64,000 bases of DNA. It comes from Acidimicrobiales bacterium. GTDB taxonomy: Bacteria > Actinomycetota > Acidimicrobiia > Acidimicrobiales > JACCXE01. Positions 3,830 through 27,652 of the stretch are shown here, piece after piece. The position numbers were made by a program, and so were the translations under genes. The stretch spans positions 64,291 through 128,290 of the forward strand of contig DASZWD010000040.1 of assembly GCA_035546775.1 (NCBI GenBank). Direction: 5' to 3'. Each line of letters starts with the position of its first letter. The stretch's first letter is position 1. The notes beneath the pieces are model-generated. The model ran no database searches. It was not told the DNA's origin and saw only the letters and a list, made by a program, of their open reading frames with translations.

Positions 3830-4849
3830 TCAGGCGCGGCTGGCCAGCTGGCCGCATGCGGCGTCGATCGACTGTCCACGCGTGTGGCGCACCGTCGCAT
3901 TCACGCCGCGTTCGACCAACGCATCGGCGAACCCGCGCACCGCGGCGCGCGTCGAGCCCATGACCAGGTAGCCCGGTGTCGGGTTGAGCGGGATGAGGTT
4001 GACGTGGGCGCCGAGGGGCACCGCGATCTCGGCGAGCTCGTCGACGTCGGACGGCCGGTCGTTCACCCCGGCGATGCACGCCCACTCGAAACTGAGGCGG
4101 CGGTTGCGGTTGCCGATGTAGGCGCGGCAGGCGGCGAGCAACGACGCCAGCGGGTAGCGACGGTTGATCGGCACGAGTTCGTTGCGCAGCGTGTCGTTGG
4201 CCGCGTGCAGCGACACCGCCAGGCCGACCGGTAGCTCCTCGCGCGCCAGGCGGTGGATGCCGGGCACGACGCCGACGGTCGAGATCGTGATGTGGCGCGC
4301 CGAGAGACCGAGGTCGCCGTGGATGCGGTCGACGGCCCGCCACGTGGCGTCGTAGTTGGCCAGCGGCTCGCCCATCCCCATGAACACGACATTGGACAGG
4401 CGCCGCTGCGTCGCCTTCGCCTCGCGAGCGGCGCGCACCACCTGCTCGACGATCTCGCCCGTGGTGAGATGGCGGCGAAAGCCGCCCTGGCCCGTCGCGC
4501 AGAAGCCGCACGCCATGGCGCAGCCGGCCTGTGACGACACGCACACCGTCGAGCGTCCCGGATAGTGCATGAGGACGGTTTCGACGGCGTTGCCGTCGTC
4601 GAGGCCGAACAGCCACTTGACCGTCGTGGCCTTGTCGGCCTCCTGGCGCATCGTCTCGCGCAGCGCGGGTCGCAGCGCCGGTTCGTCGACCAGCGCGGCG
4701 CGCAGCGACTTGGGCAGCGTCGTGAGTTCGCCGACGTCGGCCAGCTGGCTGTAGAGGCCGTCCCACACCTGGCGGGCGCGGTAGGCCGGCTCGCTCGCCA
4801 GCGCGGGCAAGGAGGCCAGGTCGTCGAGGGAAAGGTCGTGTCGTGTCAT
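3830..4849 (-). CDS. rlmN: 23S rRNA (adenine(2503)-C(2))-methyltransferase RlmN
   Basis: 339-residue radical-SAM enzyme that methylates C2 of A2503 in 23S rRNA (and A37 in some tRNAs) using a cysteine-mediated double-displacement mechanism. The 4Fe-4S ligands are C110, C114 and C117 in QAGCAMACGFCATG; the family segments NVVFMGMGEPLANY, VGLAVSLHAAND and NLIPLNPTPGY follow in order, and a conserved C-terminal Cys (DAACGQLAS) is present. Start at ATG 4849 (MTRHDLSLDDL) matches family length. It diverges from the VIT1-type gene across 33 bases. Confidence 0.95.
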   Translation of the reverse strand: MTRHDLSLDDLASLPALASEPAYRARQVWDGLYSQLADVGELTTLPKSLRAALVDEPALRPALRETMRQEADKATTVKWLFGLDDGNAVETVLMHYPGRSTVCVSSQAGCAMACGFCATGQGGFRRHLTTGEIVEQVVRAAREAKATQRRLSNVVFMGMGEPLANYDATWRAVDRIHGDLGLSARHITISTVGVVPGIHRLAREELPVGLAVSLHAANDTLRNELVPINRRYPLASLLAACRAYIGNRNRRLSFEWACIAGVNDRPSDVDELAEIAVPLGAHVNLIPLNPTPGYLVMGSTRAAVRGFADALVERGVNATVRHTRGQSIDAACGQLASRA

Positions 4850-4882
4850 TTGGACAGCTACGACTCTGGCAGAGTTCAGGGC

Positions 4883-5590
4883 ATGGCGATGACGCCCGAA
4901 CACCACCACCGCGACATCACCGGCGGCTCGGCGCGGGCCGCGGTCTTCGGCGTGAGCGACGGACTCGTCTCGAACGCCTCGCTGATCCTCGGCGTCGCCG
5001 GGGGTGCCGGGCATGTTTCGGTGGTGCGCCTCGCCGGCCTCGCCGGCCTCATCGCCGGGGCGTGCTCGATGGCGGTGGGGGAGTACCTGTCGGTGAGCGC
5101 CCAGGTCGAACTCGCCCAGCGCGAGCTGCGCCTCGAGCGCCACGAGATCGTGCACAACACCGGCAAGGAGAAGGCGGAGCTGGTGCGGCTCTACGAGTCG
5201 CGAGGCGTCAAGGCCGAGACCGCCGAAGAAGTCGCAACGGCGCTGATGGCCGACACCGACCAGGCCCTCGCCGTGCACGCCCGCGAGGAACTGGGCGTCG
5301 ACCCTGACAAGCTCGGCTCGCCGGTGCGCGCCGCCGTCGCCTCGTTCGTGTCCTTCACGCTCGGTGCGATCGTGCCGCTGCTGCCGTGGCTCTTCGGCAC
5401 CGGCGCCACCACGGCGCGCGTGGTCGCCTCGATGGTGCTGGCCGCCGGTGCGGCGGTGGCCGTCGGCTGGGTGCTCGGGCGCTTCACCGGGCGCTCGCCC
5501 GCGAAGGTCGCGGCGCGCCAACTCATCCTGGCGTCGATCAGCGCGGCGATCGCCTTTGGCATCGGTCACGCCGTCGGCGCCACCGTCTAG
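4883..5590 (+). CDS. VIT1/CCC1-family Fe/Mn transporter
   Basis: 235 residues. The family signature is clear: the first helix region DITGGSARAAVFGVSDGLVSN, then SMAVGEYLSVSAQ, an acidic/amphipathic cytoplasmic middle part (residues about 70-140, with ELRLERHEI and metal-binding-type Glu/His residues), then three C-terminal helices starting at VASFVSFTLGAIVPLLPWLF. Members move Fe2+ or Mn2+ out of the cytosol. The His run MTPEHHHRD at the N-terminus is common in bacterial members. ATG 4883 is used; an ATG two codons later is equally possible. Its TAG stop overlaps the GTG start of nth, indicating translational coupling. Confidence 0.9.
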   Translation: MAMTPEHHHRDITGGSARAAVFGVSDGLVSNASLILGVAGGAGHVSVVRLAGLAGLIAGACSMAVGEYLSVSAQVELAQRELRLERHEIVHNTGKEKAELVRLYESRGVKAETAEEVATALMADTDQALAVHAREELGVDPDKLGSPVRAAVASFVSFTLGAIVPLLPWLFGTGATTARVVASMVLAAGAAVAVGWVLGRFTGRSPAKVAARQLILASISAAIAFGIGHAVGATV

Positions 5591-22862: not shown

Positions 22863-24065
22863 CTAGCCCGGCTGGCCGTTGGCGCCCGGTGCGCCTGTGC
22901 CGCCAACGGTTCCCGGAGCGCCACTCGAGCCGCTGATGGGGCCGACACCGCCCGGGCCGGCAATGCCCGGTGCGCCACCGGCACCACCGGCACCGCCGTG
23001 ACCGGCGGCGCCCGCGAGCCCAGACCCGAGGAGACCAACGCCGGGCGCGCCGCCGTTGCCTCCGGCGCCGCCCTTGCCTCCCGCGCCGCCGTTGCCGGCG
23101 TTGCCGCCGTTGCCGCCGGCGCCGTGGTTGCCCGCCTGCGTGCTGTCGATACCGCCGAGGCCTCCCGCGCCGCCGTTGCCACCCGCTGCGCCGTTGCCGG
23201 CGTTGCCGCCGTTGCCGCCGGCCCCGCCCGCACCGCCTGTGCCGAGCCGGGCCGAGCCGCCACGGCCGCCATTGCCTCCCGCGAACCCGGCACCGCCGGT
23301 CGCCCCCGCCGCGCCGTTGCCGCCTTGACCGCCGTTGCCACCGCTCCCGGCTCCGGGCTCGCCCGAGTAGCTCCCGCCGTTGCCGCCGTTGCCCCCGTTG
23401 CCGCCGCCGAACAACGCGTTGCCACCGTTGCCGCCATGGGCTCCGCTCACCTCGGCCGAGCCGGCGCCGGCGCCGCCCGGACCGCCGTTCCCGCCGGATG
23501 GGCCACCGTTGCCGCCGTCGCCGCCGATTCCCGTCCCGCTGGCGCCAGGACCGCCGTTCTGGAGGCCGACGCCATTGATGCCGTTGCCGTCCACTCCCGT
23601 GCCGGCGGTGTTGCCGGTCGTCGCGTTGACGCCGGTGTGCCCGGGAGCGCCGTTTCCGCCGTGGCCGCCCGCTCCGCCGTTGCCGACGAGGAGCCCGCCG
23701 TTGCCGCCGTAGCCGCCGTTGCCGCCGACGCCTGTCGTCCCATCCGATCCGTTTCCGCCGTTCCCGCCGTTGCCGAAGAGCCCGGCGCTGCCGCCATTGC
23801 CACCGTTCTCGCCGTCGCCGGTGGGGCTATAGCCGTTGCCGCCGTTGCCGAACAGGAGGCCGCCGTTGCCGCCGTTGGGGTGGTCGGCGGTGCCGTTGGC
23901 GCCGTTGCCGACGAGCATCGGCGCGCCGGGAATGTCGGGGAAGCCGGGAAAAATCGACGCGGCTTCGGCGGCGTCCGGCGTACCAAGGAGGATCGCTGCG
24001 GGCGTGCCCAGCATGAGACCGGCACCGATCGCAACCGCGAGTGCACGGTGTGACTTCCTGAACAC
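22863..24065 (-). CDS. Secreted glycine-rich PGRS-like protein
   Basis: 400 residues. A signal peptide (hydrophobic core LAVAIGAGLMLG, likely cut near DAAEA-A) is followed by about 360 residues made almost wholly of GGN/GGA/GNG triplets. The first units, LVGNGANG, GGNGGLLFGNGGNG and AGLFGNGGNGGNG, match the opening of the PGRS domain of mycobacterial PE_PGRS proteins strikingly, yet there is no PE domain. No cell-wall sorting signal or C-terminal helix is seen. A near-perfect AAGGAGG lies four bases before the ATG, so translation should be strong. The antisense frame is open too, a by-product of the repeat composition. A polyglycine-II-like helical bundle on the surface is inferred. Confidence 0.85.
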   Translation of the reverse strand: MFRKSHRALAVAIGAGLMLGTPAAILLGTPDAAEAASIFPGFPDIPGAPMLVGNGANGTADHPNGGNGGLLFGNGGNGYSPTGDGENGGNGGSAGLFGNGGNGGNGSDGTTGVGGNGGYGGNGGLLVGNGGAGGHGGNGAPGHTGVNATTGNTAGTGVDGNGINGVGLQNGGPGASGTGIGGDGGNGGPSGGNGGPGGAGAGSAEVSGAHGGNGGNALFGGGNGGNGGNGGSYSGEPGAGSGGNGGQGGNGAAGATGGAGFAGGNGGRGGSARLGTGGAGGAGGNGGNAGNGAAGGNGGAGGLGGIDSTQAGNHGAGGNGGNAGNGGAGGKGGAGGNGGAPGVGLLGSGLAGAAGHGGAGGAGGAPGIAGPGGVGPISGSSGAPGTVGGTGAPGANGQPG

Positions 24066-24069
24066 TGGA

Positions 24070-24076
24070 CCTCCTT
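24070..24076 (-). promoter_or_regulatory. Strong ribosome binding site of the PGRS-like gene
   Basis: AAGGAGG on the minus strand, four bases from the ATG at 24065. It contrasts with the leaderless divergent neighbour. A minus-strand TACTTT about 40 bases upstream (24105-24110) is a candidate -10. Confidence 0.6.
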
Positions 24077-24129: not shown

Positions 24130-24585
24130 ATGCCTCTGAAGCCCGGTGACAAAGCGCCCGCCATTTCGTTGACCGACCAGCACGGCAACACGGTGAAGCT
24201 CTCGCAATTCAAGGGCCGCAAGGTGCTCGTGTACTTCTATCCGAAGGCCGACACACCCGGTTGCACGCAGCAGTCGTGCGGCATGCGCGACATCCTGCCG
24301 AAGATCGGCGACACCGCCGTGGTCGGCATTTCACCCGACAAGCCGGCCAAGCAGCTCAAGTTCGACGAGAAGTACGGCCTCGGGTTCCCGCTGCTCGCCG
24401 ACGAGGACCACGCCGTCGCCGAGGCCTACGACGTGTGGACCGAGAAGTCGATGTATGGCCGCAAGTACATGGGCATCCTGCGGTCGGCCTTCCTGGTCGA
24501 CGAGAAGGGCAAGATCGCGGAGGCCTGGTACAAGGTCTCGCCGAAGGACACGCCGGCGAACCTGCTGAAGGCGCTCGGTTCCTAG
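24130..24585 (+). CDS. bcp: Thioredoxin-dependent peroxiredoxin (Bcp/PrxQ)
   Basis: 151 residues. Reduces H2O2 and organic peroxides using thioredoxin. The peroxidatic Cys45 and resolving Cys50 are in the PrxQ arrangement DTPGCTQQSCGMRD; VLVYFYPKADTPGC and FLVDEKGKIAEAWYKV are further family marks. The start MPLKPGDKAPAISLTDQ is standard. The stop codon lies in a CTAG tetramer that also supplies the stop of the convergent propeller gene. Confidence 0.95.
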   Translation: MPLKPGDKAPAISLTDQHGNTVKLSQFKGRKVLVYFYPKADTPGCTQQSCGMRDILPKIGDTAVVGISPDKPAKQLKFDEKYGLGFPLLADEDHAVAEAYDVWTEKSMYGRKYMGILRSAFLVDEKGKIAEAWYKVSPKDTPANLLKALGS

Positions 24586-25829
24586 GCGTCGGCGATGCCG
24601 ATTCGCCCGATCGAGTATCCGAGGTCGTTCGTGAACCAGATGTTGCCGTCGGGACCGATGGTGATGCCGCACGGCCGCTCGACGTCGTAGGTGGTGAAGT
24701 CGCCGGCCGGCGTCATGCGGACGATCTTGGTGTCCTCGGTGGTGAACCACAGGTCACCGTTCGGGCTGAACACCATCTGCCAGACGCCGACGTTCGCCGG
24801 CAGGGCGACGTGGCCGAAGTCACCGGTAGGTGTGAGGTAGCCGAGTTCCTGGCTCCCGCCGGGCACGCCGTAGCCAAACCACAGGCGACCGTCAGGGCCC
24901 TTGGCGATCCCGGACGAGACGGTGAAACCGCGGTCGGCGAGGAAGCGTGTGGCTACGCCCGCGGGCGTAATGCGCCAGAGCCCGCCCGTCGTTTCGGTGC
25001 CCCAGATGTTGCCGTCGGCGCCGACGACAAGATCGTGGATCGCGTAGTCACCGACCGCGAACGCGGTGACGTTGCCTGCCGGAGTGAGCCGGATGACGTG
25101 CGAGGCGGTACTCGGATTTGCCACTGACGCACTGGTGCTGAACCACAGCGCGCCATCGGGTCCGACCACCATCGGCGAATAGCTCTCCCATCCGGTGGGA
25201 TACGCCGTCACGTGGCCGTCGGTAGTGATGCGGCCGACCGATGTGCCGTTGGCGTCGGTGAACCACAGCGCGTTGTCCGGCCCCACGACGATGTCGACGG
25301 GAGTCTGGAACGGCGCGGTGAGTTGGAATTCCTTGATGTCACCCGTCGTGGTGATGCGCCCGATTGCGTTCGTGTTCGATTCGGTGAACCAGAGCGCGCC
25401 GTCGGGCCCGGCCACGATGTGCTGCGGGTAGCTGTTCTTGCGGGCCAGCGCGTACTGGACGATCTTCGGGTCGGGCGTGATCGGTGGCCCGTCGTCCAGT
25501 AGGTCGGTCTGCGACGGGTCGTCGACGGAGTCGGTCGTCGTCACCCGCGCGGTGGTCGTCGTGTGCTCGACCCCCGTCGTCGTGGTGGGTAGGTCCGTCG
25601 TGACGGGACCGCCCGAGTCCGGGGCGTCGGTCGAGGGCGTGTCGAGAGCCGCCGGCGTCCGGTGCTTTGGGTGGCGGCTGGCGACGTGGGTGGCGGGGTT
25701 CGCCGCACCGACGATCGTTACGGCGACGAGCCCAGCCAGCACGAGCGTGCCTGCAGCCATTCCTGTCCACCAGCGGGCGCGGCGGAGGGGCGCGACCGTT
25801 CGAAGTTCGTCTACCGGCGCGGACTCCAC
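24582..25829 (-). CDS. Membrane-anchored Vgb-like beta-propeller protein
   Basis: 415 residues. One transmembrane anchor near residue 25-45 (MAAGTLVLAGLVAVTIVGAA), a Thr-rich linker (TDLPTTTTGVEHTTTTARVTT) and then seven repeats of the virginiamycin-B-lyase-like type: AGPDGALWFTESNTNAIGRIT, VGPDNALWFTDANGTSVGRIT, VGPDGALWFSTSA and so on to IGPDGNIWFTNDLGYSIGRI. The domain faces outside. The lyase activity of true Vgb needs specific His residues that cannot be verified here, so this is more likely a binding or structural propeller. Start is GTG 25829. Confidence 0.8.
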   Translation of the reverse strand: MESAPVDELRTVAPLRRARWWTGMAAGTLVLAGLVAVTIVGAANPATHVASRHPKHRTPAALDTPSTDAPDSGGPVTTDLPTTTTGVEHTTTTARVTTTDSVDDPSQTDLLDDGPPITPDPKIVQYALARKNSYPQHIVAGPDGALWFTESNTNAIGRITTTGDIKEFQLTAPFQTPVDIVVGPDNALWFTDANGTSVGRITTDGHVTAYPTGWESYSPMVVGPDGALWFSTSASVANPSTASHVIRLTPAGNVTAFAVGDYAIHDLVVGADGNIWGTETTGGLWRITPAGVATRFLADRGFTVSSGIAKGPDGRLWFGYGVPGGSQELGYLTPTGDFGHVALPANVGVWQMVFSPNGDLWFTTEDTKIVRMTPAGDFTTYDVERPCGITIGPDGNIWFTNDLGYSIGRIGIADA

Positions 25830-25884: not shown

Positions 25885-26565
25885 CTAGCTCGGCGGGACG
25901 CCGCCACGGATGCGGCGGATGATGAGCGCGACTGCGGTGCCGACCGCGCCGAGGCCGACGATGAGCGCCGCCACCAGCCCGGCACTGGTGCCGCTGTCGC
26001 CGCCCTGACCGAGCGCCCGCGTCGTCTCCGTGGTGAAGACGGTTGTCGTCGGTTCCGAAGACGTCGTCGACCCGTCGAAAAAGCCGCCGAGGTTGTCGGT
26101 GGTGGTCGTGGTGGCGACGGTCGTGGTGGTCGTCGTCGGCTGCTTGGTGGTCGTCGTCGCCGGAACGGTCGTGGTCGTGGTCGACGCTGTCGTGGTCGTG
26201 GCGGGACCCGCCGTCACGGTGATCGTGCCCTTCATCTGCGGGCCGTGGATCTTGCAGTGGTACGGGTACACGCCCGGTGTGTTGAAGGTGATGATGAGGT
26301 CGGAGCCGTTGGCGTCGAGCACCTCGTCGAAGCTCGTGCCGTCGTCGGACGTGACGGTGTGGTTCACCGTGTCGCAGTTGTGCCACGTGACGGAGTCACC
26401 GGCGTGGATGCTCGTGTCCTCACCCGGACTCGTCGAGCAGCCGCCGCCGTCGTTGAACGTCTTGCCGGCCGCGTGCACGTCGGCGTTCGCCGCCCGCGCG
26501 GGCGCGGCGAACGTGAACAGCCCCGCCGCGGCGAACAGCGTCGCCGCCAGAATCAGTCGCTTCAT
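25885..26565 (-). CDS. Membrane-anchored cupredoxin (plastocyanin-like)
   Basis: 226 residues from ATG 26565; the open frame upstream is Arg-rich and not used. Signal peptide (APARA-A, cut near 25), then a blue-copper domain with all four ligands: His69 (VNHTVTS), Cys104, His107 and Met111 (YPYHCKIHGPQMKG). Cys43 and Cys64 may pair. A long Thr-rich linker (residues about 120-190) leads to a C-terminal helix (GLVAALIVGLGAVGTAVAL) and a basic tail, so the copper domain is tethered outside. It is translationally coupled (ATGA) to the small gene upstream. Confidence 0.88.
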   Translation of the reverse strand: MKRLILAATLFAAAGLFTFAAPARAANADVHAAGKTFNDGGGCSTSPGEDTSIHAGDSVTWHNCDTVNHTVTSDDGTSFDEVLDANGSDLIITFNTPGVYPYHCKIHGPQMKGTITVTAGPATTTTASTTTTTVPATTTTKQPTTTTTTVATTTTTDNLGGFFDGSTTSSEPTTTVFTTETTRALGQGGDSGTSAGLVAALIVGLGAVGTAVALIIRRIRGGVPPS

Positions 26566-26723
26566 ACCGCCGGCGGTTTGTTCGCCTCGTTCTGATCCGT
26601 CATCACTTTGCGCACGGCGCCGGCGATGGCCGCGACCATCGAGATGCGCCGCACCCACTTGAACAGCGTGCGGAGCTTCGACTTCTGCTTCGGCTCAGCG
26701 TCCTTGTTCTTGTCCTTGGCCAC
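26562..26723 (-). CDS. Small basic protein coupled to the cupredoxin gene
   Basis: 53 residues: a Lys/Asp/Glu-rich start (MAKDKNKDAEPKQKSK), a basic amphipathic segment (LFKWVRRISMVAAIAGAV) and a polar tail. Its TGA overlaps the cupredoxin ATG. GTG 26723 is favoured over GTG 26732 because a TATTGT box is seven bases before it. It may be a peripheral or single-helix membrane peptide. No family is recognised. Confidence 0.6.
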   Translation of the reverse strand: MAKDKNKDAEPKQKSKLRTLFKWVRRISMVAAIAGAVRKVMTDQNEANKPPAV

Positions 26724-26752: not shown

Positions 26753-27517
26753 CTAGGACTTCGGACCGATGAACGTGTCGAGCATGGCGACTGAATCACG
26801 CTTGGCCACCGACAGGCAGTTCCAGTTGTTCTGCCGCCACTCGACCCCGAGCAGGTCGAAACCCCAGGCACACAGCATGAGGATGTCGGTCGACACGTTG
26901 TTGAAGAAGTAGCGCGGATATGAGTAGCGCTTCCCTCGAACGACGACGTTGTTGATCGCTCGGCAGCCATCGCTGTGGATCAGGGCAGCGACAAATTCAC
27001 GTGGGTGCGCCTCGACCAATTCTCGTTGCCAGCTCGTTAGTTCGATCACCCGTTCATGTTTTCTGCCCGGTCCGTATTGCGGGAACAGGCACGGAAGATG
27101 CTTCGAATGAACGATGACCTCGCCACACCCGATCGATTGAACGAAACCAACCTTCTTGCCTGGCAGCACCGATTGGATCGATTCGACGCACCGCTGCCTA
27201 ATGCCGGGATACGCGTCCGCGGTGGCGATCCGAAGCTTGAAGACCCCGCGGGGTCCGATGGGGTGGATGTAGCCGTCTCCAAGGTATTGCCCGAGGAGGT
27301 ACACATATTCCGCTGGCGGCGCTCCGCGCACGAGTTGACACTGGTCGGCGTCGTGGGGCGCATGCGCTGCGCGCGTCGCGAAGGCGTCGAGAGGTTGCAC
27401 AAACCAGCTGCGGATCGCCATCCGGCTGACGCCCAATACGCCAGAGATCTGCGAAACGTTGAGACCCTCGTCATGGAGGCGAAATGCTTCCTGCACCGTT
27501 TCGAACGACTTGGTCAT
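26753..27517 (-). CDS. HTH plus LAGLIDADG-like protein (domesticated homing endonuclease or regulator)
   Basis: 254 residues. The N-terminus has a resolvase/AsnC-like HTH (FRLHDEGLNVSQISGVLGVSRMAIRSWF, residues about 12-39). Two LAGLIDADG-type helices follow at a one-hundred-residue interval: YLLGQYLGDGYI with Asp81 and EFVAALIHSDGC with Asp183, both acidic residues intact. This architecture is known from free-standing actinobacterial proteins often labelled transcriptional regulators; nuclease activity is not established. By eye the gene is less GC-rich than its neighbours, and it stands next to tRNA-Leu, both signs of acquisition. A LexA-like box abuts its -10 element. Confidence 0.8.
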   Translation of the reverse strand: MTKSFETVQEAFRLHDEGLNVSQISGVLGVSRMAIRSWFVQPLDAFATRAAHAPHDADQCQLVRGAPPAEYVYLLGQYLGDGYIHPIGPRGVFKLRIATADAYPGIRQRCVESIQSVLPGKKVGFVQSIGCGEVIVHSKHLPCLFPQYGPGRKHERVIELTSWQRELVEAHPREFVAALIHSDGCRAINNVVVRGKRYSYPRYFFNNVSTDILMLCAWGFDLLGVEWRQNNWNCLSVAKRDSVAMLDTFIGPKS

Positions 27518-27564: not shown

Positions 27565-27652
27565 TGGTGCCCGAGGCGGGGATCGAACCCGCACGCCCTT
27601 ACGGACCAATGGGTTTGAGCCATTGACGTCTGCCTAGTTCCGTCACTCGGGC
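27565..27652 (-). tRNA. tRNA-Leu (anticodon CAA)
   Basis: 88 bases including an encoded CCA. The acceptor arms GCCCGAG/CTCGGGC pair fully, the anticodon stem AATGG/CCATT encloses loop CTCAAAC with anticodon CAA (reads UUG), a long variable arm (around GGTCCGTAAGGGC) marks a class II tRNA, and the T arm is GCGGGTTCGATCCCCGC. It is transcribed toward the HTH-LAGLIDADG gene. Confidence 0.95.

Follow-up and report, generated by a model that had tools for sequence, protein, structure and literature searches.

To our knowledge, PE_PGRS proteins have been described as confined to mycobacteria, where they have been studied as virulence and mycomembrane proteins. Their PGRS domains have been proposed to form polyglycine-II (PGII) sandwiches equipped with a hydrophobic foot (PMC9436101; PMC10216338), and in this family the domain is preceded by a GRPLI motif (PMC10216338). 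According to a 2025 review, which names two PGRS genes of M. smegmatis mc2 155, the PGRS proteins known from M. smegmatis and Mycolicibacterium have "questionable" N-termini in which PE needs to be confirmed, and the review leaves open whether these proteins possess a PE domain at all (PMC11939664).

The protein analyzed in the current work is encoded in the window, i.e. the whole 64,000-nucleotide stretch of Acidimicrobiales DNA that was examined, and shares with the PE_PGRS proteins of Mycobacterium (Pfam PF00934 plus PF21526) the order of the units that begin the PGRS domain, a Gly-Gly-X body and hydrophobic turn pairs near the start of that domain. It differs from them in having no PE domain, in carrying an ordinary signal peptide, in the absence of the GRPLI motif before the PGRS domain (the corresponding sequence being IPGAPMLVGNG, with GAPMLVGNG in place of the motif), and in belonging to a host from another class of Actinomycetota.

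The gene and its PGRS domain

The sequence-only reading had described a secreted protein of 400 residues, composed of GGN, GGA and GNG triplets, at positions 22863-24065, and exactly this open reading frame was found on the minus strand (22863..24065; 400 aa, GTG start, PF21526 match), as a single copy in the genome. The Shine-Dalgarno sequence recognized upstream, AAGGAGGT (24069..24076, minus strand), can pair with the 16S tail along its full length, but the 4 nt between AGGAGG and GTG are slightly short of the ideal spacing.

A rule-based check identifies the N-terminus as a signal peptide of the Sec type, MFRKSHRALAVAIGAGLMLGTPAAILLGTPDAAEA-A, which occupies residues 1-36 (23958..24065, minus strand) and includes RKSHR, a hydrophobic core and AEA before A37, at the putative cleavage site. 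It is followed by the linker SIFPGFPDIPGAP, in which IPGA-P is all that is kept of the mycobacterial linker segment, and then by the PGRS start at residues 52-121 (VGNGANGTADHPNGGNGGLLFGNGGNGYSPT..AGLFGNGG..; 23703..23912, minus strand), supported by PF21526, by a custom profile with shuffled controls and by AlphaFold. The units LVGNGANG, GGLLFGNGGNG and AGLFGNGGNGGNG, on which the earlier reading had relied, are located within residues 51-106, and the PGRS start contains most of the hydrophobic LV/LLF/LF/LLV pairs of the protein. The remaining sequence (residues 122-400; 22866..23702, minus strand) consists of GGN/GGA/GNG triplet repeats and includes a GHTGVNAT loop at residues 142-149 (23619..23642, minus strand), matching the G..GVNP loop of several mycobacterial PGRS proteins, as well as a GVGLQNGG block at residues 165-172 (23550..23573, minus strand); no C-terminal domain, LPXTG motif or second transmembrane segment was found in these residues. 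Residues 50-400 contain 47-48% Gly and 8-17% Asn, with neither Cys nor Trp, while hydrophobic residues represent 16% of residues 50-139 versus 8% of the protein thereafter.

Considering that uncorrected scores are high from composition alone (up to 81 bits for shuffled sequences, with 114.5 bits for the window protein), it could be argued that any secreted GGN-repeat protein would resemble PGRS through convergent low complexity. A custom profile of the PGRS start was built from 89 mycobacterial starts, with the window left out, and gave the window protein a corrected score of 59.3 bits. The highest scores among the controls were 14.5 bits for shuffles of its triplet order (n = 1000), -1.1 for residue shuffles (n = 1000) and 5.4 for its own later stretches. 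The score being far above that of the triplet shuffles, the order of the units is shared beyond what composition would produce. In the alignment, the order LVGNGANGTA-HPNGG-GGLLFGNGGNGYS-T---GGNGGSAGLFGNGGNGG is that of the mycobacterial proteins (52-70% identity), with positions such as HPNGG, LLFGNGG, NGYS, SAGLFGNGG, GVN and GVGLQNGG shared in the same succession, and PF21526 matches residues 52-121 along model positions 1-71 of 73 with 38.4 bits (gathering cut-off 27); NCBIfam gave no match to the protein. At the level of sequence, these comparisons confirm a real PGRS domain with canonical unit order and make convergence highly improbable. The canonical PGRS beginning seen by the sequence-only reading is thereby borne out, and the lack of shared unit order that it had named as the sign of convergence was not what was found.

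Predicted export without PE and the nearest mycobacterial relatives

No PE domain (PF00934) was detected in the window protein or elsewhere in its genome, even with a search loose enough for its control to match in E. coli. The ESX part was likewise not found, the marker EccB (PF05108) giving no match in the window genome; however, the positive controls of this search were silent as well, and therefore the absence of ESX does not follow from it.

The mycobacterial PGRS proteins used for comparison numbered 90 after two with doubtful N-termini had been left out, and since they were gathered with the window as bait they represent a biased sample and not a census. As judged by profile, PE was present in 34 of the 90 and absent from 56. 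A signal-peptide rule (a positive n-region, an uncharged hydrophobic core of 14 residues, then A-x-A) was passed by 50 of the 56 proteins without PE versus none of the 34 with PE, and the window protein passes the same rule, being organized as signal peptide, short linker and PGRS start. The earlier proposal that a plain signal peptide takes the place of PE in the window protein thus stands, whereas its premise that mycobacterial PGRS proteins are exported through PE does not hold for the 56 proteins without PE, of which 50 carry a signal peptide. Signal peptides of the Sec kind are a likely answer to the "questionable" N-termini of the M. smegmatis and Mycolicibacterium proteins (PMC11939664).

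In Mycolicibacterium sp. S2-37 (locus L060), two Sec-PGRS starts of the same subfamily form a tandem pair, the second (4776-4991) being situated immediately after the first. In L105, L109 and L129 a mycobacterial Sec-type PGRS start precedes an apparent glycoside-hydrolase domain (TWITD.DGRV...HG.NEV), such that the PGRS piece seems to present an enzyme, and in another mycobacterium (L111, genome G863) a long YVTN-type beta-propeller precedes the PGRS start within one open frame of 3162 codons.

Among the Sec-exported PGRS proteins of Mycolicibacterium and Mycobacterium, L070, L060, L117 and L121 share with the window protein the signal-peptide sequence, a short linker, the PGRS start, the GVN loop and the lack of a C-terminal domain. 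Differences are the shorter linker of the window protein, which lacks the DIAG.IP.LN segment found in L060, L117, L121 and L010, its host outside the family and its single copy. When the window signal peptide (residues 1-36), which resembles those of the Mycolicibacterium Sec-PGRS proteins, was compared alone with all mycobacterial N-termini, the five best were L070, L117, L121, L060 and L010, with scores from 69 to 47 (z-values of 7.5 for L070, 6.2 for L117, 5.2 for L060, 4.9 for L121 and 3.5 for L010). In the tree of PGRS starts, L070 (Mycobacterium sp. AZCC_0083) is nearest to the window protein, the two being 78% identical over 54 columns, and L060, L117 and L121 are among those that come next; this tree is based on 60 columns, and no well-supported small clade in it contains the window protein. 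GVGLQNGG is common to the window protein and L070, in register and in the corresponding place, LQNGG being absent from all the other mycobacterial PGRS proteins searched; the GVN loop preceding it also occurs in several others. With the start alone in pairwise comparison, PE-type starts (113 bits) score slightly above L070 (104 bits), and consequently the kinship between the window protein and L070 rests on the combination of features.

The gene product would accordingly belong, judging from these likenesses, to a Sec-exported kind of PGRS protein that is also present in non-tuberculous mycobacteria, chiefly Mycolicibacterium and Mycolicibacter. Its signal peptide would lead it through the Sec route across the cytoplasmic membrane independently of PE, EspG and any ESX machine, to yield a mature protein of approximately 363 residues without an anchor.

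Distribution, gene neighborhood and origin

A contig scan of 84,980 species genomes retrieved at least 44 confirmed loci, and all 44 of those listed are from Mycobacteriaceae. Within the class of Mycobacterium a match was obtained in 18 of 346 genomes, corresponding to two of 126 genera, both from one family. In the window's order, two of 397 genomes were above the family cut-off, and a broader profile matched two of 223. A query with the full-length protein against 118 relatives returned the window itself as sole match, and the one other species of the genus that was searched (G296, 77% complete) gave no match. No related locus was detected in plasmids (tblastn with the BLAST low-complexity filter on), no confirmed relative in the viral contig scan, and no paper naming Acidimicrobiia together with PE_PGRS in the literature search. 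Four candidates were rejected as family members: those in G551, G671 and G682 are below the cut-off and their translations are not glycine-triplet proteins, and the match in G1037 is below the family cut-off.

Divergent PGRS-like proteins that are secreted also occur in two further families of the window's order: G071 (locus L131), encoded on the minus strand in an open frame of 2001 codons, and G220 (locus L139, 979-3144), a glycine-triplet protein with a lipobox (VVSAC). Both resemble the window protein in possessing a signal peptide, a glycine-triplet body and a PGRS-like start, yet that start (NGTAT.P.AG..FGTGFS) carries two Cys and is 43-52% like that of the window, and the lipobox of G220 is a further difference. 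The start common to the two proteins, [VL]V.NGTAT.P.AG..FGTGFS..C..GG.GG.L.GDGGDG, is 57% alike between them and also resembles that of the mycobacterial Sec type L028/L126 (ISNGTAAHPDAGLLIGNGFD).

The PGRS gene stands alone in its neighborhood, with a divergent gene for a Bcp-type peroxiredoxin (AhpC/TSA) at 64 bases from its start and a glyoxalase-family gene converging on it. Simple scans recognized no promoter or terminator near it, and no marks of a mobile element were found at the gene. In relatives, the genes that precede the Bcp orthologues are different ones, with no PGRS gene among them, and no neighborhood genes are common to the window and the mycobacterial PGRS loci. Three further open reading frames nearby on the minus strand were noted: a probably exported propeller of the virginiamycin-B-lyase type behind a Thr-rich linker (24582-25829), a probably exported cupredoxin whose tail is rich in Thr and which has a hydrophobic segment at the C-terminus (25885-26658), and, beside tRNA-Leu (27565-27652), a frame with an N-terminal HTH-like part (26753-27517) in a stretch of lower GC content (0.58-0.61), which may represent a homing endonuclease or the remnant of a mobile element.

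Considering that the nearest relatives of the gene are mycobacterial, an assembly error, or contaminating DNA of a mycobacterial genome, would also account for its presence. The gene is, however, situated inside a contig of 132,741 bases whose trpA, Bcp and other genes are closest to those of the window's order (65-84% identity to order relatives for Bcp), the contamination of the genome is given as 1.4%, and the gene product is far from identical to L070, all of which renders this explanation extremely improbable. Gene kinship places the host probably in the class Acidimicrobiia.

The sequence-only reading had left the choice between transfer and an older Sec-exported PGRS lineage. In the latter account, a Sec-exported PGRS protein predates the split of the classes and survived in mycobacteria and in a small part of the window's order but was lost elsewhere, PE being joined later to some of the mycobacterial copies. 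The families of G071 and G220 possess PGRS-like secreted proteins whose start is of a distinct type and resembles L028/L126, which is consistent with such a history, and a clade of the window protein, G071 and G220 was not rejected by the tree test (p-AU 0.29; 60 columns). On the other hand, very many losses would be needed, given the two of 397 and two of 223 genomes in the order and the absence of matches from the other 124 genera of Mycobacterium's class. Moreover, the window start reaches 104-113 bits and 65-70% identity to mycobacterial starts, versus 61 bits and 43% for G220 and 52 bits for G071, and its signal peptide and GVGLQNGG block match one mycobacterial subfamily. An old lineage is the less probable history, and transfer, the other half of the earlier proposal, is favored because of the distribution and of the specific match to a single mycobacterial subfamily. 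Codon usage made no distinction between host and donor. In the simplest account, the gene was acquired from a mycobacterium by horizontal transfer: it would most likely have entered the lineage as a single gene, and it lies between the divergent Bcp-type peroxiredoxin gene and the convergent glyoxalase-family gene. To the joint reading of the locus, i.e. a Sec-exported PGRS protein of the mycobacterial kind that acts as a PGII surface scaffold and was acquired as a single gene from a mycobacterium, we assign a probability of roughly 0.6.

Predicted fold and significance

AlphaFold, supplied with eight sequences, modeled residues 51-80 with a mean pLDDT of 91-92 and residues 81-110 with 77-87, confidence being low elsewhere; the mean for the whole model is 54, and a single-sequence run gave 34. 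The only PDB matches of the model are two antifreeze proteins, 7jjv of a springtail and 2pne of the snow flea, both of them polyproline/polyglycine-II bundles, the VIA-align match to 7jjv (Z 16.9, rmsd 1.6 over 125 residues) being located in a low-confidence part of the model, as is the whole antifreeze-matching stretch at residues 208-368. The structure prediction suggested earlier, for a PGII bundle, thus returned matches to PGII bundles only, at low confidence in the matching stretch and in most of the model.

As its fold matches are confined to arthropod antifreeze proteins, the window protein might be a PGII protein that binds ice or plays another role at the surface, functionally unrelated to mycobacterial PGRS. 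Nevertheless, the antifreeze match reflects the PGII stack common to these proteins, and the start of the window protein is homologous to mycobacterial PGRS, which makes such a role quite unlikely. The two antifreeze proteins share with the window protein the predicted polyglycine/polyproline-II helix bundle, but they are animal proteins for which no kinship is shown, and they contain disulfides, whereas the window protein is devoid of Cys.

The mature protein is predicted, partly at low confidence, to form a stack in which polyglycine-II helices run antiparallel, with the glycines directed inward. Given the enrichment of hydrophobic residues between residues 50 and 139, a foot would be present at the N-terminal part only, where hydrophobic turn residues are predicted to line one edge in the manner of the "sail foot" of PE_PGRS models. 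With regard to location and role, we infer that the protein would be released to the cell surface, or remain on it, and would serve there or in the matrix as a flat scaffold or an adhesive-matrix protein, making it a likely candidate for an extracellular polyglycine-II surface scaffold.

The sequence comparisons confirm a PGRS protein, with a signal peptide for putative export by Sec, in a bacterium outside Mycobacterium and from a different class, the mycobacterial Sec-PGRS counterpart of which has been little studied. PGRS without PE in another class, together with the many mycobacterial PGRS proteins that carry a signal peptide, would separate PGRS from PE, from ESX and from the mycomembrane, the last of these not being known from the window's class. 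It is conceivable, albeit rather doubtful, that PGRS is an older actinobacterial surface module exported by Sec to which PE was joined later in mycobacteria, rather than a novelty of mycobacteria bound to PE and ESX; if this were true, the basic role of PGRS would require neither a mycomembrane nor a host. The window protein may serve as a potential, harmless model for the function of the PGRS domain by itself, apart from PE and ESX.
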